Positions 1 through 19,378 of a DNA stretch of 54,177 nt are shown here, piece after piece. The stretch spans positions 1 to 54,177 of the forward strand of contig JACPIQ010000124.1 of NCBI GenBank assembly GCA_016188005.1. The letters are read 5' to 3'. Positions within the stretch are counted from its first letter, which is position 1, and every line of letters begins with the position of its first letter. The position numbers and the translations under genes were made by a program. The stretch is from Candidatus Rokuibacteriota bacterium. Lineage in GTDB: Bacteria; Methylomirabilota; Methylomirabilia; Rokubacteriales; CSP1-6. The notes under the pieces are model-generated. The model saw nothing but the letters and a program-made list of their open reading frames with translations. It did no database searches and was not told the DNA's origin.

Positions 1-2037
1 CCCGGGCTCCGCGCGTGCCGCCGCGAGTCCGGCCGCGGCGCCGAACACCTGCGTCTCGCTCAGCGCGTTCCCGGCCAGGCGGTTCACGCCGTGCACGTTG
101 CCGGTGACCTCGCCCGCCGCGAACAGGCCAGACACCGAGGTGCGGCACTCGGGGTCGATCTCCACCCCGCCGAGGCAGTAGTGGACGCCCGGGTAGACCT
201 CGAGCGGCGTCGTGCGGGGGTCGATCCCGAGCCGGAGCTGGCGCTTGAACTCCCCCGGCATCCACTGCTGGAGGAGCCGCCCGAGCTCCTCCGGGCTCCG
301 GGGCGAGCAGCGGAGGTCGGTCCAGACGCCGCCGTGCGGCGTCCCGCGCCCTTCGGCGACCTCGGCGGCGATGGCGCGAGAGAGCCGGTCACGGACGGGG
401 AACCCACCCAAGAATTCGTCGCCGCGTCCGTTCAGGAGACGGCCGCCGGCGAGCGCCTCCGAGAGCACGAACTCGTAGTAGAAGGCCATGCCCCGGAGCG
501 CGCGGGGATGGCAGACCACGCTGGGATAGAAGAGAACCATCTCCAGGTCGGTGAGCCGCGCCCCCGCCTCCCACGCCGCCACCGTCCCCTCGCCGGTCGC
601 ATCGGAGGAGGCGTCGGTGAACGACCAGATTGCCTCGTACCCTCCCGTGGCCAGCACGACCGCCCGCGCGCGCACCCCGCTGACGCGGCCGGTGAGGAGG
701 TCGACCAGGACTGCACCCGTCACGCGCTGCCCATCGGTTACGAGTTCCACAAGCATCGCGTCTTCCAGCACGTCGACGCCGCGCCGGCCGAGCTGTCGAT
801 CGAGCGCCGAGACCAGTCCCCACCCGCCGCCCCGCACGTACGCGTTCCGCGGGCGAGAGAAGCCCGGCATGCTGAACAAGCGCAGCGACGCGTCGGGCAT
901 TCGCTGGAAGAGCACCCCGTAGCGCTCGAGGTCTCTGAGGCGGGCGGGGGCCTCCTCGACCAGGCGCCGGGCCAGCGCGGGGGAACCGAGGCCGCCGGCC
1001 TCGCGAAGGGTGTCTCTCAAGTGGAGCTCGATCGTGTCGGTCGGGTCGAGGACTGCCTGCACGCCCCCGCCCGCCATCGGCGTGTTGCCCGACTTGCCGA
1101 TGGGCCCCTTGCTCACCAGCAGGGTCCGGGCTCCCGCCGATTGGCTCTCGATGGCGGCCCGCACCGCAGCCGCCCCTCCCCCCACCACCAGCACGTCGGT
1201 CTCGATGACGGCGCGCCGCACCTCGGGCCGGGCCCGGCCACCCGGCCGCCTCCGGGTGCGGGTCCCCTCGCCGAGCGCGCTGCCAAGGTACACGCGGCGT
1301 ACGCGCTCGTCGGTCTGCGCCTGGGCGGGCGTCCCGTCCAGGATCAGCCGGCCCGAGTCCAGGACGACGACGCGCTCGGAGACGTCCATCACGAGCGCCA
1401 TGACATGCTCGACGAGGAGGATCGTGAGGTCCAGCTCGCTCCGGAGACGGCGGAGAAGGGTCTTGAGCTCCTGGATCTTCGGCCGGCTCAGCCCGGCCGC
1501 CGGCTCGTCGAGGAGCAGGAGGCGCGGCCGGGCCGCGAGCGCGCGCACCACTTCCAGGAGCCGTTGGTCACCGAACGAGAGGTCCGCCGCCGGTGTGTCA
1601 CGCACCGGGTCAAGCCCGACCAGTGCGAGCAACGCCCGCGCCTCCTCCACCGCGCTGGCCTCAGCCCTCACCGCCGACGGCAGCCGGAGCCCCGAGCCGA
1701 ACAACCCGTGTCGCACCCGGAGATGGCTGCCCACCAGCACGTTGTCGAGCACGCTCAGGCGGCGGAAGATCTCGAGGTTCTGGAACGTGCGCCGGACCCC
1801 CAGCGCCGCGATCTGGTTGGGCCGGAGGCCGAGAAGCGAGCGACCGTCAAGCCGGATGTCGCCCCGGGTCGGTCGGACGATCCCGGTCACGGCGTTGAGG
1901 AGCGTGGTCTTGCCGGACCCGTTGGGGCCGATCAACCCGCAGATCTCGCGGGGCCCCACCGAGAAGCTCACCTCGCCCAGCGCGTCGAGGCCGCCGAAGC
2001 GAACCGTCAGGCGATCGACCTCGAGGAGGGGGGGCAC
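1..2037 (-). CDS. LivG-type ABC ATPase fused in frame to a fumarate reductase-like FAD flavoprotein (partial, runs off left edge)
   Basis: One open minus-strand frame with a GTG start 3 bp after the livM stop. Residues about 1-250 are a LivG-type ATPase of a branched-chain amino acid/amide importer: Walker A GPNGSGKTT, signature LSFGDQR, Walker B LLLLDEPAAGL, H-loop LLVEH. Without any stop the frame continues through an Arg/Gly-rich linker into a dinucleotide fold (VLVVGGGAAAVRAA, about residue 283) and a flavoprotein of the succinate dehydrogenase/fumarate reductase/aspartate oxidase superfamily, ending at the edge after AAGEVTGNVHG. The His used for covalent FAD in SdhA is not seen in the corresponding SGNTPMAGGG stretch, so FAD is probably non-covalent. 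A GTG at 1221 could start the flavoprotein separately, but livG has no stop of its own. A LivF ATPase is not present. Domain calls are secure; a true fusion polypeptide is an inference. Confidence 0.8.
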   Translation of the reverse strand, partial: MPPLLEVDRLTVRFGGLDALGEVSFSVGPREICGLIGPNGSGKTTLLNAVTGIVRPTRGDIRLDGRSLLGLRPNQIAALGVRRTFQNLEIFRRLSVLDNVLVGSHLRVRHGLFGSGLRLPSAVRAEASAVEEARALLALVGLDPVRDTPAADLSFGDQRLLEVVRALAARPRLLLLDEPAAGLSRPKIQELKTLLRRLRSELDLTILLVEHVMALVMDVSERVVVLDSGRLILDGTPAQAQTDERVRRVYLGSALGEGTRTRRRPGGRARPEVRRAVIETDVLVVGGGAAAVRAAIESQSAGARTLLVSKGPIGKSGNTPMAGGGVQAVLDPTDTIELHLRDTLREAGGLGSPALARRLVEEAPARLRDLERYGVLFQRMPDASLRLFSMPGFSRPRNAYVRGGGWGLVSALDRQLGRRGVDVLEDAMLVELVTDGQRVTGAVLVDLLTGRVSGVRARAVVLATGGYEAIWSFTDASSDATGEGTVAAWEAGARLTDLEMVLFYPSVVCHPRALRGMAFYYEFVLSEALAGGRLLNGRGDEFLGGFPVRDRLSRAIAAEVAEGRGTPHGGVWTDLRCSPRSPEELGRLLQQWMPGEFKRQLRLGIDPRTTPLEVYPGVHYCLGGVEIDPECRTSVSGLFAAGEVTGNVHGVNRLAGNALSETQVFGAAAGLAAARAEPG

Positions 2038-2040
2038 GCC

Positions 2041-2997
2041 TCAGCCTCCCGCCCGGGCACCCGCGAGCGGTCCGCGACACCAGAGGGCGGCCGCGCGAGC
2101 GAGTCCCCACACGCCCCGCGGCATGAAGAGCACCGAGCCGCCCAGGATGAGACCGAACGCCATGAACTGGAGGTCCTTCGTGGTCCGCAAGAACTCGGGC
2201 AAGAGCGTGATGATGACGGCGCCGACAATGGCGCCGCCGAAGGTGCCGCGGCCGCCCACCACGATCATCATCACGAACATCAGCGAGGTGATGATCGTGA
2301 ACGACGCCGGGTCGATGAACCCGATGAGCGGACCGAAGAGGGCTCCGGCGACGCCCGCATAGAAGGTCGAGAGCCCGAAGGCGACCAGTTTCCAGGTGAC
2401 CACGCTCACCCCCGAGCACGCCACCCCGATCTCGGAGTCGCCGAGCGCCAGGAGCGCCCGTCCGGGGCGGGTGCGCAGGAGGTTCTGCATGAACCAGGCG
2501 AGGACGGCGACGACGACGAGGATCAGGTAGAAGTACCCGAGCTCCGGTCGGATTCCGGGGGGGAGCGCGGGCCGTGAGACGGGCAGCCCCGAAGCGCCGC
2601 CGGTCAGGGACTCCCAGTGGAGGAAGACCAGGCGGGCGACCTCGCCGAAGGCGAGCGTCATCAGCGCCAGGTAGTGGCCGCTGACGCGCAGGGCCGGGAG
2701 CCCGACGACGACGCCCACCGCCGCGGCGATTATCCCCGCGACGGGGAGCGACAGCCAGAAGGGCACGCTCTTGGCCGAGAGGAGTGCGCCGGTATAGGCG
2801 CCGATCCCATAGAAGGCGGCGTGGCCCAGGCTGATCTGACCCGCCACGCCCATGAGGACGTCCATGCCCAGCGAGACGATCACCGCGACGCCGGCGAGGC
2901 TCATGAGGTAGAGCGCGTAGACGCCGACGACGGGGGCAGAGCCGGCGGCGCCGACGAGCGCCAGGACCCACCAGAGACCGCCGAGCCGCCCGGACAT
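2041..2997 (-). CDS. livM: Branched-chain amino acid-type ABC transporter permease LivM
   Basis: Inner-membrane permease of 318 residues, the usual LivM size, with about nine hydrophobic segments. The family signature region GQISLGHAAFYGIGAY (about residues 53-68) and the cytoplasmic loop GRALLALGDSEIGVACSGV that contacts the ATPase are visible. Its ATG overlaps the livH stop as ATGA, and livG starts 3 bp after its own stop, so the permeases and ATPase are translationally linked. With LivH it should form the translocation pore for the ligand caught by LivK. The family transports amino acids, amides, urea and aromatic acids; the ligand cannot be read from this sequence. Confidence 0.93.
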   Translation of the reverse strand: MSGRLGGLWWVLALVGAAGSAPVVGVYALYLMSLAGVAVIVSLGMDVLMGVAGQISLGHAAFYGIGAYTGALLSAKSVPFWLSLPVAGIIAAAVGVVVGLPALRVSGHYLALMTLAFGEVARLVFLHWESLTGGASGLPVSRPALPPGIRPELGYFYLILVVVAVLAWFMQNLLRTRPGRALLALGDSEIGVACSGVSVVTWKLVAFGLSTFYAGVAGALFGPLIGFIDPASFTIITSLMFVMMIVVGGRGTFGGAIVGAVIITLLPEFLRTTKDLQFMAFGLILGGSVLFMPRGVWGLARAAALWCRGPLAGARAGG

Positions 2998-3881
2998 CAG
3001 ACGCGCCGGACGGCCTGGCGCTCGAAGAAGCCCGTGGGCTTCACCAGGAGGATCGCGCCCAGCACCAGGTAGGCGATCCCGTCCTTGAACGCCATCGAGA
3101 GGTAGCCGCCGGCGAGGTTCTCGAGAATACCCAGCAAGAGCCCCCCCACGATCGCGCCAGGCAGGCTCGTGAACCCCCCGATGATGGCCGCAGCGAAGGC
3201 TTTCACCGCGACGATCCCCATGGAGGGCTCAGCGTGAATCAGAGGGGCCAGGAGCACGCCGCCCAGCGCCCCCAGCACGCTGCCGAGCGTCCACGACAGC
3301 GCGAACATCCGCCCCACGTCGATGCCCATGAGGCTCGCCGCGTCGCGGTTCTGGGCCGTCGCCCGCATGGCCTTGCCCACCCAGGTGTAGCGGAAGAAGG
3401 CGAAGAGCGCGGCCATGACGACGGCCGAGAAGGCGATGATCATCAGGCTGAGCGGCGTGATCCGGATCCCGCCGAAGATGACCGGCTCCTTGCCGAACGA
3501 GGTGGGCAGCGGATAGGGGTTCGGCCCGAAGATCAGCATGGCCAGGCTGTTCAGCACGATGCCGATGGACAGCGTGAGGATGATGGTGTTGACCAGCGAC
3601 GACTTGAAGCGGACCAGCATCGTCGACACCGTGCCCCCGACGGCGAGGCCGAGGATCGTGCCCACCGCCACGGCGGCGGCCAGCGCCACCCCGAACGGCA
3701 GACCGAGCAGGCTATAGGCGACGATGCCGCTGTAGGCGCCCGCCATCATCAGGTCGCCCTGGGCGAAGTTCACCACGTCGGTGGCCTTGTAGATGATCAC
3801 GTAGCCCAGCGCGATCAAGGCGTAGATGGACCCAGACACCACCCCGCTCGCCACTTGCTGGAGAAACAGCTCCATGGCCAC
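2997..3881 (-). CDS. livH: Branched-chain amino acid-type ABC transporter permease LivH
   Basis: Inner-membrane permease of 294 residues with LivH hallmarks: N-terminal SGSIYALIALGYVIIYKAT, then VVNFAQGDLMMAGAY (about residues 37-51), and the ATPase-contact loop GKAMRATAQNRDAASLMGID. The start used is GTG at 3881, 9 bp after the livK stop; an in-frame ATG two codons later (3875) is an equally plausible start and neither has a strong Shine-Dalgarno. Partner of LivM in the pore. Part of the livK-H-M-G operon that follows a PreA-like enzyme and a GntR regulator. Confidence 0.93.
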   Translation of the reverse strand: MAMELFLQQVASGVVSGSIYALIALGYVIIYKATDVVNFAQGDLMMAGAYSGIVAYSLLGLPFGVALAAAVAVGTILGLAVGGTVSTMLVRFKSSLVNTIILTLSIGIVLNSLAMLIFGPNPYPLPTSFGKEPVIFGGIRITPLSLMIIAFSAVVMAALFAFFRYTWVGKAMRATAQNRDAASLMGIDVGRMFALSWTLGSVLGALGGVLLAPLIHAEPSMGIVAVKAFAAAIIGGFTSLPGAIVGGLLLGILENLAGGYLSMAFKDGIAYLVLGAILLVKPTGFFERQAVRRV

Positions 3882-3890
3882 CGAACCGAC

Positions 3891-5123
3891 CTACGGCTTC
3901 ATGTTGACGATCTCGTCCAGGACCTTGCGCCCCCCCACGACCACGTTCATCAGCTGGCGCTTCTTGCCGGTGATCTGGAAGAACGTGGCCTCGCTCATAC
4001 CGTCGTGGTTGGTGGGGGTGAAGCTGATGGACATCATGAGTCCGTCGTGCGAGAACCCGCGGGTCTTCTCCAGCGCGGCGACCAGCCCCTCGCGCGTGAG
4101 GTCGGGCCCCGCCGCCTCGATCGCCTTCACGAACAGCCGCGTGGCCACGTACCCGATGATGTCGGGCAGGCCAGGACGCCCGGGATCGATCACGTTCGGG
4201 TAGGCTGCCTTCCACTTCTTGGTGAAGGCCACCATCCGCGGGTCGTCGGACTCCTCGATGACGGGGATGTAGGTCAGGAACATGGCCCCCTCGGCGTACT
4301 CGCCCGCCAGGCTCACCGTCACGCGCTGGCCGGAGGCCACCGAGCCCACCGTCTTGGCGCTCAGGCCGAGCTCCTTCGCCTGCCGGAGGTAGATGGCCCC
4401 GGGGCGGAGGTACGTGTAGAGGATCACCACGTCCGGCTTTGCTTCCCTCAGCTTCAGCACCTGGGCCGAGAGATCGGTGGCGTCGCGGTCGTGCTCGACC
4501 ACCGCCACCGGCGTCACCTTGTGCTGGGCCTGCAAGCGCTCGATGACGTACTGCGCGCCGACCTTGCCGTAGTCGTCGGACTGGTTGAGGATCCCCACCC
4601 GCGCGGGCTTGAGGTGCTGCATCACGAAGTCGGCCAGGAGCCAGCCCTGGAGCTGGTCGTTGAAGGACGCGGCGCGGAAGATCGTCTTGTGGAACGGCCG
4701 GGTCACCTTCGGGGAGGACGGGATCTGGACGAACACGGGGACGTTGGACTCCTTGAGGATCGGGAGCGTGGCAACGAAGGGATTGGATCCGCCCTGGTTG
4801 ATCAGGGCGAAGACCTTGTCGTTGTGGAGGAGCTTGCGGGCGGCAGCGATGGAGCCCGCCGGCGTGCTCCGGTCATCCTCGACGATGACCTTGACGGTGC
4901 GCCCGTGAACGCCACCCGCCGCGTTGACCTCGTTGATCACCATCATGGCGCCGTCCCGGGCGCCGGTCCCGTAGAAGGAGCCCGCGCCCGTGTAGAAGCC
5001 GAACATCCCGACGGTGATCGTGTCCCTGGTCACCCCGGTGCGGTCCCCCGCCCCGAGCGCCAGACCGGGCACCATTAGCAGCGTCAGCGCGACCGACACG
5101 ACGAAACTCCGCGTGGCTCTCAT
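3891..5123 (-). CDS. livK: Periplasmic substrate-binding protein of the Liv-type ABC transporter
   Basis: A 410-residue periplasmic binding protein of the Leu/Ile/Val-binding (Peripla_BP_6) type. The ATG at 5123 was chosen because it follows AGGAGGG by 7 nt and opens a clear signal peptide (MRATRSFVVSVALTLLMVPG, cleavage near ALALGA); a longer reading to 5252 would bury the signal. Family features are the opening RDTITVGMFGFYTGAG, the AAGGVHGRTVKVIVEDD segment and the repeated Rossmann-like lobes. The C-terminal ITGKKRQLMNVV and ILDE-like end are normal for the family. It should deliver the ligand to LivHM. The ligand is unknown; the PreA-like and flavoprotein neighbours point to a catabolic substrate rather than simple amino-acid uptake. 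Confidence 0.92.
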   Translation of the reverse strand: MRATRSFVVSVALTLLMVPGLALGAGDRTGVTRDTITVGMFGFYTGAGSFYGTGARDGAMMVINEVNAAGGVHGRTVKVIVEDDRSTPAGSIAAARKLLHNDKVFALINQGGSNPFVATLPILKESNVPVFVQIPSSPKVTRPFHKTIFRAASFNDQLQGWLLADFVMQHLKPARVGILNQSDDYGKVGAQYVIERLQAQHKVTPVAVVEHDRDATDLSAQVLKLREAKPDVVILYTYLRPGAIYLRQAKELGLSAKTVGSVASGQRVTVSLAGEYAEGAMFLTYIPVIEESDDPRMVAFTKKWKAAYPNVIDPGRPGLPDIIGYVATRLFVKAIEAAGPDLTREGLVAALEKTRGFSHDGLMMSISFTPTNHDGMSEATFFQITGKKRQLMNVVVGGRKVLDEIVNMKP

Positions 5124-5163
5124 TTCGATCCCTCCTCGGCGCTGTGCGTTGCGCGAGCGGCCG

Positions 5164-6399
5164 CTACGAATCGAGGCCCATGTAGACGGGGACGCTCCCC
5201 CGCATCTCGAAGGCGTCCTGCGGGCAGAGGGCCAGGCAGAGCCCGCAGCCATCGCACTTCTCCTTGTCGACGATCGCGATGCGATCGGATCCGAAGGTGA
5301 TCGCGTCGTAGTAGCACCAGTGCGAACAGTAGCCGCAGCCGTCGCACAGGTCGCGGATCACATCCATGTAGATCTCGCCCTTCGGGGTGCGCTCCAGCGT
5401 GTCGAAGGTCCTGAGTTGGGGCAGCGAGATCCCTCGGAGATCGTTCACCGAGGCGTAGCCGTTCTGGACGAGATAGCGGTCCAGGCCACCGACGAGATCG
5501 CGGATGATGCCGTAGCCCTTCTTCGAGTACATGATCGCCGTGCAGACCTGGACGGTCGTCGAGCCGACCATGAGTACTTTCACCACATCCTCCCAAGTCC
5601 AGATCCCGCCGCTGAACGCGATGGGCAGACCCACCTCCTGGGCCACGCGGACCACGAACTTCTGGACAATGGGGCGCATCCACGGACCACCGCAGCCCGA
5701 GAAGCCGCCGGCGAGCAGCGGCCGTCCTGTCTTGAGATCGACCTCCAGCGCCGACGTCCGGTCGCCCACCGTCACCCCTGCCGCCCCGCCCTTCTTCGCC
5801 GCATGGGCGCCGCCGAGGATCGAATGGATCCCGAACTCCGAGCCGACCTTGACGAAGATGGGGATGCGGACGCTCTGCACGGCCGTCCCGATCATGTCCA
5901 CCCACTGGTCGAATGCGAGAGACAGACCGCCCGAGCTCGAGATCGACGATCCGGAGAGGTTCGGGCACGCGAACATCCAGGCCTCGAGCATGTCGCAACC
6001 GGCATCCTCGTGAGCGCGCGCGAGGTTCCGCCAGTTCTCGAGCGAGATGGCGCCCATGCTTCCGATCAGCCGGGCATCGTTCTCCTCAGCGTACTTCTTC
6101 GCCTGCTTGAGCTCGTTCATCCACTCCTCCGGCCGGTACTCGCAGGCGAACTCGCTGGAGTAGTGGGTGAAGGAGTGAGGGTAGGCCTTCCTGTTCAGAA
6201 TCGTGAACCGCGGCCGCACGTAGGTGCGCATCGGCTGGCCGCCCATCTCGTCGGGAATCACGGTCTTCGCCACCGCCGCCGCCGCCCCGCTCTCGAACGA
6301 CCGCCGGAAGAACTCGGCGTTCTTCGTGGGAGTCGCCGAGGCGACGACAAGGGGGTTCTTGAGCTTCACTCCGCAGACGTCTATCTCCAACCGGCTCAT
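5164..6399 (-). CDS. PreA-like dihydropyrimidine dehydrogenase subunit (DHOD-like TIM barrel plus two [4Fe-4S] clusters)
   Basis: 411 residues, the size of the catalytic subunit PreA of NAD-dependent dihydropyrimidine dehydrogenase. Residues about 1-320 form a dihydroorotate dehydrogenase-like FMN barrel (MSRLEIDVCGVKLKNPLVVA start, ACPNLSG near residue 145, SGGIWTWEDVVKVLMVG near the phosphate site). The C-terminus has two ferredoxin motifs, Cys352/355/358/362 and Cys382/385/388/392; the first has Tyr where Pro usually follows the fourth Cys. No PreT-like partner is in the window, although the flavoprotein fused to LivG lies in the same operon. It starts 16 bp after the GntR gene and 40 bp before livK. 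Activity on pyrimidines is possible, but uncharacterised relatives of this family act in other pathways. Confidence 0.85.
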   Translation of the reverse strand: MSRLEIDVCGVKLKNPLVVASATPTKNAEFFRRSFESGAAAAVAKTVIPDEMGGQPMRTYVRPRFTILNRKAYPHSFTHYSSEFACEYRPEEWMNELKQAKKYAEENDARLIGSMGAISLENWRNLARAHEDAGCDMLEAWMFACPNLSGSSISSSGGLSLAFDQWVDMIGTAVQSVRIPIFVKVGSEFGIHSILGGAHAAKKGGAAGVTVGDRTSALEVDLKTGRPLLAGGFSGCGGPWMRPIVQKFVVRVAQEVGLPIAFSGGIWTWEDVVKVLMVGSTTVQVCTAIMYSKKGYGIIRDLVGGLDRYLVQNGYASVNDLRGISLPQLRTFDTLERTPKGEIYMDVIRDLCDGCGYCSHWCYYDAITFGSDRIAIVDKEKCDGCGLCLALCPQDAFEMRGSVPVYMGLDS

Positions 6400-6415
6400 C
6401 TCGCTGGCTCCTTTC

Positions 6416-7054
6416 TCACACGCTCCTCAGCAAGTGCTCCCTGCAGAGGGCGATGTGCCGCTGCATCGCCCTCTCGGCCTCATCGGGCTTCCCGTCGCGG
6501 ATGGCGTCGATGATCTCCTGATACTGTCCATACGCCTCCTGGGCGACGGTCTGGTTAGCGACGAAGATCGCGAAGATGCGGGTCATGTGGCCGTGCAGCG
6601 TCTCGAGGATGCCGGCGAGCGTCGCATTGTTGGAAGCCCTGCCAATCCACTCGTGGATCTTCAGCCCCACAGCGATGAGGTCCTGGTACCGCCCGCTCTT
6701 GCGCGCCAGCCCCAGCTCTTCCTCGAAGGCGTCCAGCGCCTGCTTGTCCGGGTTCTGGCACGCCAGCCGCGCGGCGAAGCCTTCTAGCATCTCGCGGACT
6801 TGGAAGACCTCGTGGAGCTCCTTGAGCGACACGCCGGTGGCGAACACGCCCCGCCGGGGGTGTATGTTCGCGAACCCCTCCTGAGCCAACCGGATGAGGG
6901 CTTCCCTGATGGGGGTCCGGCTCGCACGGTAACGCCGGGCGAGGAGCCTGACGGGGATCGGGTCGCCTGGCTTCAGGGCCCCGGAGAGGATGTCGCGCCG
7001 AAGCGCCCGGTAGACGCGCTCGGTGAGGCTCGGGGTCACCGGCTGTGCTGACAT
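6416..7054 (-). CDS. GntR family transcriptional regulator, FCD subfamily
   Basis: 212 residues. The N-terminal winged helix (residues about 10-75) has the GntR signature SGALKPGDPIPVRLLARRY followed by RTPIREALIRLAQEG. The C-terminal all-helical FCD ligand domain includes FQVREMLEGFAARLAC, a conserved His near residue 133 (LKIHEW) and HGHM plus QRHIALCREHL histidines typical of the metal/carboxylate pocket. It is the first gene of the PreA/Liv operon, so it most likely controls that operon in response to its substrate or a breakdown product. A short palindrome sits 22 bp upstream of its start (separate entry). Confidence 0.9.
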   Translation of the reverse strand: MSAQPVTPSLTERVYRALRRDILSGALKPGDPIPVRLLARRYRASRTPIREALIRLAQEGFANIHPRRGVFATGVSLKELHEVFQVREMLEGFAARLACQNPDKQALDAFEEELGLARKSGRYQDLIAVGLKIHEWIGRASNNATLAGILETLHGHMTRIFAIFVANQTVAQEAYGQYQEIIDAIRDGKPDEAERAMQRHIALCREHLLRSV

Positions 7055-7369
7055 GGCTCACGGTGCTGACATATCTCTGGCATACCAGCTCTGCTCAGGT
7101 TGCACTCTCGTCGCTCAGCCGCGCCGACGTCAATGAGGCGTCTGTCTCAGTCTCGTAGTTCGTCCGGCCTCGGCGAGGGTCGCCGATCGTGCATGCGCCG
7201 GTTGGGGCGGGCGTGATCGGCGGGAAGCGACGCGGGCCGAGGAGGGACCCTTTGGCATGAGTCGGCAGGCCTTGTGACCGAGGAGGCCTCCCTCATCCCC
7301 GTCGAGGCCGTGCGGACCTGCAGAGAAGTCAGCGAGGTGGAGCGGGCCTGCGCCAACCTCAAGGGTGGG
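7055..7369. other. Intergenic region upstream of the GntR operon
   Basis: About 315 bp without a convincing gene. Open frames here (for example 7147-7362 minus and the plus-strand frame beginning at 7274) lack recognisable protein features and look like GC-rich shadows. The region should hold the promoter of the GntR operon, including the CTGGCATACCAG palindrome at 7077-7088, and the 3' end of the enoyl-CoA hydratase transcript. A small hairpin, CGGCGA-GGG-TCGCCG, lies at 7171-7185 and could act in termination, but no T-run follows it on either strand. Confidence 0.5.
7077..7088. promoter_or_regulatory. Candidate GntR-family operator palindrome
   Basis: CTGGCATACCAG is an imperfect palindrome (CTGG/CCAG arms, YATR centre) 22 bp upstream of the GntR start. 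FCD-type GntR proteins commonly bind short GG/TT...CC/AA-type palindromes near their own promoters, so autoregulation is plausible. The site is short and the call rests on position and symmetry only. Confidence 0.35.
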
Positions 7370-8200
7370 CTAGATTGGCTCGCCGCTGTCCCTTTCGCGG
7401 ACGGCTTGCTTGAAGCCCACCTGCTCGCAGCGGGTCTTGAAGGCGAAGCCCTCGGGGGTGTGGCGGGTGATGCCGTCGAACAGGGTGGCGATCATCTGCG
7501 TGGCGGCGAGCCCCATGTTCTCGTAGGCCTGGTTGACCATGAGCTTCTGCATCATGAGCTGGTTCCGCGGCACCCCGGCCATCCGGGCGGCCAGCCGCTC
7601 CACGGCGAGGTCGAGCTCCAGCGCCGGCACAGCCTCGGAGACGAGCCCGATGCGCGCCGCCTCGCTGCCCGTGATCAGGTCCCCCGTGAGGAGCAGGCGC
7701 TTCGCGCGCTCGGCGCCGACCCGATACACCCACATGGCTGTGGTGGGACAGCCCCACACCCGCGCCGGCGGATAGCCGATCCGCGCCTCATCGGCCATGA
7801 CGACCAGATCCGCGCAGAGGGCGATGTCGCTGCCCCCCGCGACGGCGTAGCCATGCACCTTGCAGATCACTGGCTTGAAGCTCCGCCAGAGGCTCATGAA
7901 GCAGGCGGTGTTCTCGCTCATCCCCTGGTAGTCGAGCATCGGGTCCCACGGAAGGTCCTGGCTGTACTCCTGGGGCCGGGGCCGCTCGGCGTAGCGCTCG
8001 AGGTCGTAGCCGGCGCAGAAGGCCCGCCCGGTGCCCGACAGCAGGATCACGTGGACGGCGTCGTCTCGGCCGGCCTCCTCCACAGCCTGGCGCAGCGCCC
8101 GCGGCATCTCGCCGTCGATGGCGTTGAGCTTCTCGGGCCGGTTCAGCGTGATGCGGGCAATGCGTCCGTCTCGGGCGTAGAGCACCGGGGCAGCGGGCAT
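7370..8200 (-). CDS. Enoyl-CoA hydratase/isomerase (crotonase) family protein
   Basis: 276 residues, crotonase fold. The ATG at 8200 has a GGGAGGT ribosome-binding site 5 nt upstream; the frame is open further to 8341 but the extra residues are the reverse side of the DprE2-like gene. Visible motifs are ITLNRPEKLNAID near the N-terminus, the oxyanion loop SGTGRAFCAGYDLE, and HGYAVAGGSDIALCADLVV with the second oxyanion Gly. The region usually holding the catalytic Glu pair reads EARIGYPPARVWG, so hydratase activity is uncertain and an isomerase or hydrolase role is possible. It follows dprE2 by 40 bp and may belong to the end of that operon or be independent. Confidence 0.87.
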   Translation of the reverse strand: MPAAPVLYARDGRIARITLNRPEKLNAIDGEMPRALRQAVEEAGRDDAVHVILLSGTGRAFCAGYDLERYAERPRPQEYSQDLPWDPMLDYQGMSENTACFMSLWRSFKPVICKVHGYAVAGGSDIALCADLVVMADEARIGYPPARVWGCPTTAMWVYRVGAERAKRLLLTGDLITGSEAARIGLVSEAVPALELDLAVERLAARMAGVPRNQLMMQKLMVNQAYENMGLAATQMIATLFDGITRHTPEGFAFKTRCEQVGFKQAVRERDSGEPI

Positions 8201-8240
8201 GGCGACCTCCCTGGTTCCGGCATGGGTTGGCGCGGCGGCC

Positions 8241-8978
8241 TCAGAAGCGGATGCGGCGCATCGCGGCGTGAGGCAGCAAGCGGATGACGAGCATGATCCA
8301 CCGCCACACCGGCGGGGCATAGACCACGCGCCGGCCAGCATCGAGCGCCTTCAGCACCGTCCGGGCCACGGGCTCCGGCTCCCCGGCGAAGGGCGGCACC
8401 GGCAGCCCTTCCGTGAGGCCGGTCCGGACGAAGCCCGGCTTCACGCAGAGCACGCTCACGCCGCGCTCGGCATAGGCATGGCCCAGTCCCTCGAGGAAGG
8501 CCGACAGCCCGGCCTTGGAGGCGCCGTAGAGGTAGTTGCTGCGTCGCGGGCGGTCGCCGGCCACGCTGCTGAAGACGCAGAGCCGCCCGCCGCCGCGGGC
8601 CGCCAGCCGCTCGGCGGCCAGCTGGCAGAGCACCACGGTCCCCGTGAAGTTCACGTGGAGCAGCTGCTCGAGCCGAGCCATGTCCCGCTGGAGCGCCTCG
8701 GACGGATCCAGCAGGCCCCCCGTCACCACCAGCGTGTCGATGCCGCCGAGGGCCTCGTCCGCCGCGGCCAGGGCCGCCTCGAAGCCGGCCGGACGAGCCA
8801 GATCCAGAGGTGCCGTCTGCACGGGCCCCGCCGCCCCGCGGGCCTCGAGGTCCCGCGCCGAGGCGGCCAGCTCGGCCGCGTCGCGGCCGAGGAGGCACAG
8901 GGCCTCCCCACGCTCGGCCATGAGCCGGCTGAGCGCCCGGCCCATCCCGCGGGTCGCGCCGACGAAGGCGACTCTCAT
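8241..8978 (-). CDS. dprE2: DprE2-like short-chain dehydrogenase (polyprenyl-phospho-2-keto-ribose reductase)
   Basis: 245-residue SDR. The NAD(P) loop is GATRGMGRAL, the catalytic triad region reads SSVAGDRPRRSNYLYGASKA with Ser, Tyr and Lys in place. The C-terminal tail RWIMLVIRLLPHAAMRRIRF resembles the tail of mycobacterial DprE2, which ends in a similar membrane-associating RR-x-F sequence. DprE2 reduces the 2-keto intermediate made by DprE1, finishing epimerisation of polyprenyl-phospho-ribose to polyprenyl-phospho-arabinose. It lies 135 bp downstream of dprE1 in the same direction; the gap holds a tandem repeat. The identity rests on the tail, the SAxGxRxRRxNxxYG-type motif and the neighbours; a generic SDR is the alternative. 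Confidence 0.82.
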   Translation of the reverse strand: MRVAFVGATRGMGRALSRLMAERGEALCLLGRDAAELAASARDLEARGAAGPVQTAPLDLARPAGFEAALAAADEALGGIDTLVVTGGLLDPSEALQRDMARLEQLLHVNFTGTVVLCQLAAERLAARGGGRLCVFSSVAGDRPRRSNYLYGASKAGLSAFLEGLGHAYAERGVSVLCVKPGFVRTGLTEGLPVPPFAGEPEPVARTVLKALDAGRRVVYAPPVWRWIMLVIRLLPHAAMRRIRF

Positions 8979-18090: not shown

Positions 18091-18151
18091 CTATCTCGCT
18101 TGAACGTGGATGACATCGCGCTGCGGTTGGGCCTCTTCGCGCCTGCGGCGC

Positions 18152-19378
18152 TCATCGGGATGCCGGGTCCGTCCCGTCGCTGCGCGTGCTGCCGAGCGCG
18201 GTGGAGACGGTGTGGACGTCCTTGTCCCCGCGTCCCGACAGCCCGACCACGATCGTCTCGCGCTTCTTCATCTCCCGGGCGGCGCGCATGGCGTAGGCCA
18301 CGGCGTGCGCCGACTCCAGCGCGGGCATGAGCCCTTCCAGCCTTGCCAGGGTCCGGAAGGCGTCGAGGGCTTCCTCGTCGGTGACGGAAGCGTACCGGAA
18401 GCGGCCGAGGTCCCGGTAATAGGCGTGCTCGGGTCCCACCCCGGGGTAGTCGAGCCCCGCCGAGATCGAGTGGGCCTCGGCCACCTGCCCGTCGTCGTTC
18501 TGGAGGACGTAGCTCATGCTTCCGTGGAGCACCCCCACGGCGCCGGCGCCGAGGGAAGCCCCGTGCTTGCCACTCGCCAGGCCGTGGCCGCCCGCCTCCA
18601 CGCCAACGATCCGGACGTCGCGATCGGTGATGAACGGCCAGAACAGCCCGATGGCGTTGGAGCCGCCGCCCACGCAGGCGACCACCAGGTCCGGGAGCCG
18701 CCCCGTGAGCCGGCGCGCCTGGGCGCGCGCCTCCTCGCCGATCACCCTGTGGAAATCGCGCACCATCATCGGGTACGGGTGCGGGCCCATGGCCGAGCCG
18801 AGGAGATAGTAGGTGGTCCGGACATTGGTCACCCAGTCCCGGAGCGCCTCGTTCACGGCATCCTTGAGCGTGCGGGAGCCCGACTCCACGGGGATCACCG
18901 TCGCCCCGAGCAGCCGCATGCGGAAGACGTTGAGCGCCTGGCGCTCCACGTCCACGCTGCCCATGTAGACCTCGCAGGGGAGCCCGAAGAGCGCGGCCGC
19001 TGTGGCCGAGGCCACGCCATGCTGACCGGCGCCGGTTTCGGCGATGATCCGCTTCTTCCGCATCCGGGTGGCCAGGAGCGCCTGCCCCAGCACGTTGTTG
19101 ATCTTGTGGGCGCCGGTGTGGCAGAGGTCCTCGCGCTTGAGAAAGATGCGCGCCCCCCCGCAGCTCCGTGTCAGCCGCTCGGCGAAGTAGAGCGGCGTGG
19201 GGCGGCCCGCGTAGTGGGTGAGCAGGTCCCGGAGCCGGCGCAGGAAGCTGGCATCGGCGCGGGCGGCCCCGTATGCCCGCTCGAGATCCATGAGCGGCGC
19301 CATGAGCGTCTCCGGCACGAAGCGCCCGCCGAAGCGGCCGAAGTGGCCGGTGGCGTCCGGAAGCGCGGAGGGGTTCAC
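18152..19378 (-). CDS. trpB: Tryptophan synthase beta subunit
   Basis: 408 residues from a GTG that overlaps the trpF stop (GTGA). The N-terminus [16 protein letters not shown] is diagnostic; the PLP Lys is Lys92 in [15 protein letters not shown], and the phosphate cradle [14 protein letters not shown] and C-terminal [10 protein letters not shown] are present. It condenses indole with serine. It is of the standard TrpB1 type, not the TrpB2 type. Confidence 0.96.

Follow-up and report, generated by a model that had tools for sequence, protein, structure and literature searches.

Predicted in-frame fusion of a LivG-type ATPase and an FrdA/TfrA-type flavoprotein in an import-and-redox operon of a Candidatus Rokuibacteriota genome

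LivG proteins (NCBIfam PRK11300; structure 1g6h) comprise a complete ABC ATPase followed by the BCA_ABC_TP_C tail, and their genes lie in operons with livK, livH, livM and livF. Flavoproteins of the FrdA/SdhA/NadB/TfrA superfamily (7d6v, 1chu) share an FAD fold and a set of active-site residues. PreA and dihydropyrimidine dehydrogenase (DPD) have a dihydroorotate dehydrogenase (DHOD)-type barrel and two [4Fe-4S] motifs. To our knowledge, no importer ATPase fused to a catabolic oxidoreductase has been described, and searching the literature for fusions of LivG to a flavoprotein, or of an ABC protein to an oxidoreductase, turned up no relevant record. The stretch of DNA analysed here (the window; 54,177 nucleotides) is contig C124, positions 1-54177, of a 140-contig genome (G000). 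Its features are collected in Table 1.

Table 1. Features of the fused frame, its operon and the flanking sequence. Coordinates are those of the window unless contig C95 is named.
Feature	Coordinates	Strand	Basis or remark
Flavoprotein, FrdA/SdhA/NadB/TfrA superfamily, residues 276-679	1..1212	-	FAD_binding_2; cut by contig end
Linker, about 20 residues, LGEGTRTRRRPGGRARPEVRR	1213..1275	-	Stop-free in fused frame; absent from homologues of both halves
In-frame GTG, codon 273, possible separate flavoprotein start, VRRAVIETDVLVVGGG	1219..1221	-	Position and frame
LivG-type ATP-binding domain, fused-frame residues 1-254	1276..2037	-	GTG start 3 nt past livM stop
livM-like permease	2041..2997	-	BPD_transp_2 E 5e-39
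livH-like permease	2997..3881	-	BPD_transp_2 E 5e-36
livK-like solute-binding protein, signal peptide-like N-terminus	3891..5123	-	Peripla_BP_6 E 5e-61
PreA-like oxidoreductase, dihydroorotate dehydrogenase-type barrel and two [4Fe-4S] motifs	5164..6399	-	DHO_dh E 5e-19, Fer4_21 E 4e-10
GntR/FCD regulator, head of operon	6416..7054	-	GntR E 2e-19, FCD E 1e-25
Island side of breakpoint, absent from same-genus G002	1..7372	.	blastn; other breakpoint C95:1410
Enoyl-CoA hydratase gene flanking operon	7370-8341
livF, LivF-type ATPase	C95:198-920		NCBIfam LivF E 6e-67, below equivalog cut-off

On the minus strand, positions 2037 to 1 form a single stop-free, 679-codon frame, which is still open at the contig end. 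Pfam domains detected on its translation were ABC_tran (residues 21-180, E 3e-27), the Liv-specific tail BCA_ABC_TP_C (residues 230-254, E 1e-6) and FAD_binding_2 (residues 281-659, E 5e-64). The in-frame LivG-flavoprotein join reported in the initial annotation is thus present in the assembled DNA, and the linker of about 20 residues that it described was borne out, as residues 257-276 match no LivG or flavoprotein homologue. Alignments with 11 LivG-type proteins and 12 flavoproteins indicated that the LivG half is complete to its natural end and that the flavoprotein half begins at its natural N-terminus (IETDVLVVGGG). In 30 of the 31 LivG homologues checked, the YLG motif is followed by a stop 1-14 residues on, whereas the fused frame reads through. 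The AlphaFold model of the fused protein, moderate overall (mean pLDDT 77.9, pTM 0.56), has two folded parts, with residues 253-275 at pLDDT below 50. The closest solved folds to this model (Foldseek) are the flavoprotein chains of succinate dehydrogenase and fumarate reductase. These sequence comparisons lend good support to a fusion at the DNA level; at the protein level, a single predicted polypeptide is likely.

The LivG half has Walker A (GPNGSGKTT), signature (LSFGDQR), Walker B (LLLLDEP) and switch His (VEH) motifs, as read from the sequence, and is 49-54% identical to the LivGs of the phylum. Its ABC ATPase domain and BCA_ABC_TP_C tail both score above the Pfam cut-offs. It shares an operon with the LivK, LivH and LivM genes in the window and with a LivF gene on contig C95, assigned to the same island by synteny. 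Against NCBIfam LivG PRK11300 (E 3e-76) the domain scored 256 bits, under the curated cut-off of 362, and is therefore referred to as LivG-type and not as an E. coli-type LivG equivalog.

The fused frame is rather probably a true joining of two adjacent operon genes, livG and a gene for a cytosolic FrdA/TfrA-type flavoprotein, on an island gained between an enoyl-CoA hydratase gene and gltX. In favour of joining are the meeting of complete domains at their natural ends in an open frame with a disordered linker between them, tight operon spacing (-1 nt for livH/livM, 3 nt for livM/livG, and a livF start inside the stop of the preceding oxidoreductase gamma gene), the rarity of interior indels relative to the same-genus genome G002, livF and the tail of a 2-oxoacid oxidoreductase gene beside gltX on C95, and clustering of the flavoprotein with livHMGFK in two Clostridial relatives. 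Against it are the single known copy, the non-coding-like composition of the linker, the alternative start at codon 273 and the unseen C-terminus of the flavoprotein.

The two halves could also be separate proteins, the stop having been lost through assembly error or as a strain variant, or the flavoprotein being started mainly at the internal GTG (1221). This explanation is unlikely, though it carries appreciable weight. Initiation at codon 273 would yield the N-terminus of the stand-alone homologues, which begin within a few residues of this codon, and the genes are unfused in the Clostridial relatives; however, the sequence just upstream of the GTG holds no strong Shine-Dalgarno. The linker, with a GC content of 0.78 at codon position 2 (0.32-0.66 in other blocks), resembles non-coding high-GC DNA. 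Among single-base edits of the linker, 2 of 234 substitutions and 4 of 312 insertions would each create a stop, but none of the 78 deletions does (6 of 624 edits in total). Over about 14.6 kb of syntenic DNA, C124 and G002 are 92% identical, and one compensated indel pair was found within a gene body, the remaining indels sitting at gene ends. Since indels are so rare within these neighbouring genes, a sequencing slip exactly at the LivG-flavoprotein junction is unlikely, although the junction itself has no homologous DNA for comparison.

A search for the same fusion in related genomes, as had been suggested, gave no second copy: no match spanned both halves in 99 relatives (about 11 candidates scored per genome), and no plasmid record covered 80% of the fused-frame query. 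An orthologous locus was likewise not found among 95 phylum genomes. This last result, and the position of the fusion at a contig end, count in favour of a chimeric contig in which livG of one locus had been joined to the flavoprotein of another. Such a random join is, however, not expected to fall in frame and exactly between complete domains; moreover, related flavoproteins independently adjoin liv genes, and the facing contig has the expected livF. A chimera is thus very improbable. The fused gene, known from one instance, is an unusual new domain combination made of known parts.

Window base 1 is the end of contig C124, and the sequence to its left, to which the initial annotation had drawn attention, was approached by synteny with G002. 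There, the enoyl-CoA hydratase gene is followed by gltX within some 20 bases, an empty site. Blastn identity of the window to G002 ends at 7373 and that of C95 resumes at C95:1410, next to the gltX of the window's own genome (C95:1430). The ends of C124 and C95 would accordingly face each other across one insertion. C95 opens with the 66 C-terminal residues of a 2-oxoacid:ferredoxin oxidoreductase gamma-like protein (NCBIfam E 7e-7; Pfam POR E 9e-6, slightly under the gathering score), and the stop of this gene is overlapped by the start of livF. With the two contigs so placed, the gap must hold the C-terminus of the flavoprotein and the part of the oxidoreductase gene that is missing from C95. 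No end overlap joining another contig to window positions 1-150 was found, and a search of the same genome for the C-terminal domain of the flavoprotein returned just other full genes; the gap sequence therefore seems absent from the assembly.

The livF gene had been taken as absent, an assertion that does not hold in view of its presence on C95. A contig end can mimic a missing gene, as it did here. The title of the initial annotation also implied an importer lacking LivF, in which a LivG homodimer bears the redox domains. livF does not follow directly after livG, unlike in most relatives, but the livF in the same island contradicts this proposal and makes it extremely improbable.

Two further assignments were considered and rejected. 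C28, which has a truncated oxidoreductase gamma match, is not the neighbour of C95, as the match is internal to a 78-kb contig. Mis-binning of C124 was discounted on the basis of a phosphoribosyltransferase on the contig that is 93% and 89% identical to its same-genus homologues. As a separate observation, an intergenic sequence of about 66 bases recurs in the genus (window 18094-18159; L099:15154-15219; L101:3042-3107 and 2849-2953). It is 92% identical between C95 and the window and is perhaps an intergenic repeat family.

The GC content of the island is 68.7%, as compared with 71.2 ± 0.9% in the rest of the contig. The best homologue of the LivK-like protein among 95 phylum genomes is just 35% identical, and a search of 94 other phylum genomes gave no homologue of the PreA-like protein at E<=1e-60. 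Given these two proteins without close phylum relatives, a flavoprotein whose best match in the 95 phylum genomes is 44%, the lower GC and the empty site in G002, a horizontally gained catabolic island appears to be the simplest reading. The PreA-like protein scored 209 bits against the PreA equivalog (cut-off 335), and a Phe is aligned to the LACGQD Cys of pig DPD, the active-site Cys. From these comparisons it is probably not a dihydropyrimidine dehydrogenase.

The flavoprotein half has the FAD_binding_2 fold of the fumarate reductase/succinate dehydrogenase family. About 150 C-terminal residues, including the Succ_DH_flav_C domain found in its homologues, are cut off by the contig end. The best NCBIfam match is TfrA PRK06263 (E 2e-99, under cut-off). 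The truncated protein reaches none of the equivalog cut-offs, scoring 334 of 718 bits for TfrA, 227 of 567 for SdhA/FrdA and 218 of 453 for NadB; its PDB relatives are Sdh1 (7d6v) and NadB (1chu). Alignments indicated that the active-site Arg (RD motif), His (HY..GG) and Arg (HG.NRL) are kept. The FHP active-site His, which Sdh1, NadB and the majority of phylum paralogues possess, is missing: the window protein and L052-L054 read FYP. The sequence thus points to a member of the FrdA superfamily with an altered substrate pocket, for which fumarate or aspartate should not be assumed as the substrate.

Across 84,980 scanned genomes, the nearest outside relatives of the flavoprotein were three Clostridial proteins (40-42% identity), which have in common with it the NTPMA motif and the His to Tyr change in FHP. 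Two of the three, those of Petroclostridium sp. X23 (L052) and a Clostridiales MAG (L053), are encoded by separate genes clustered with livHMGF and a livK-type gene. Both clusters also include an arginase-family gene, and in the MAG a 2Fe-2S protein gene comes right after the flavoprotein. These loci (L052:4193-11656; L053:4252-12033) may each represent an uncharacterised import-and-catabolism operon. Relatives of the flavoprotein on plasmids (Paracoccus, Ilyobacter, Haladaptatus) have other gene contexts. In the window's own genome, further FAD_binding_2 genes lie near Liv ATPase pairs, unfused as judged from coordinates (C74:20333-23719; C121:36957-41780).

With C124 and C95 facing each other across one gap, the island would be ordered gntR, PreA-like Fe-S oxidoreductase, livK, livH, livM, livG-flavoprotein, assembly gap, 2-oxoacid:ferredoxin oxidoreductase (at least gamma) and livF. 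LivK would capture an amino-acid- or organic-acid-like solute, to be imported by LivHM together with LivF and the LivG domain. Oxidation or reduction of the solute or its products would then fall to the flavoprotein, the PreA-like protein and the ferredoxin-linked oxidoreductase. The disordered linker of about 20 residues may tether the flavoenzyme to the importer ATPase, holding this enzyme where the importer opens into the cytosol. The arrangement that demands least is an ordinary LivFG heterodimer carrying a passenger enzyme, because Walker A, signature and Walker B of LivG are kept and LivF is the likely partner. A more elaborate role, in which the importer ATPase carries the first redox enzyme of substrate catabolism and unites import and redox in one complex, possibly with substrate handover or a redox-gated ATPase, is distinctly doubtful.

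Transport and redox chemistry in one predicted protein is nonetheless possible, as the initial annotation had it. Translated as one chain, the fusion would link an ABC importer directly with the enzyme using its cargo, and would mark the substrate of the flavoprotein as the solute of the importer. The recurring association of FYP-type flavoproteins with Liv importers offers a handle for substrate assignment of orphan Liv systems. The LivG-flavoprotein is best read as the product of two genes fused within a catabolic operon for import and redox chemistry, any function specific to the fusion being putative.

Compared with known systems, the locus has the complete ABC ATPase, the BCA_ABC_TP_C tail and the livK, livH, livM and, beyond the gap, livF genes of LivG operons. 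It differs in that the LivG-type protein bears a C-terminal flavoprotein and that livF is set apart from livG by at least the flavoprotein and one oxidoreductase gene. The PreA-like protein resembles PreA and DPD in its DHOD-type barrel and two [4Fe-4S] motifs, but it is only about 30% identical to the PreA proteins of plasmid records, falls below the PreA cut-off and has Phe for Cys. The flavoprotein shares the FAD fold and three active-site residues with FrdA/SdhA/NadB/TfrA, but has Tyr for the FHP His and a 7-residue gap just ahead of the catalytic Arg; unlike SdhA, it has Asn at the position of a His that we take to be the covalent-FAD site. It is most like the L052 and L053 flavoproteins, in the NTPMA..G and FYP motifs, the 40-42% identity and the association with livHMGFK. 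In those two loci, by contrast, the flavoprotein is unfused, an arginase-family enzyme and, in L053, a 2Fe-2S protein are encoded beside it rather than a PreA-like protein, and livF comes directly after livG.
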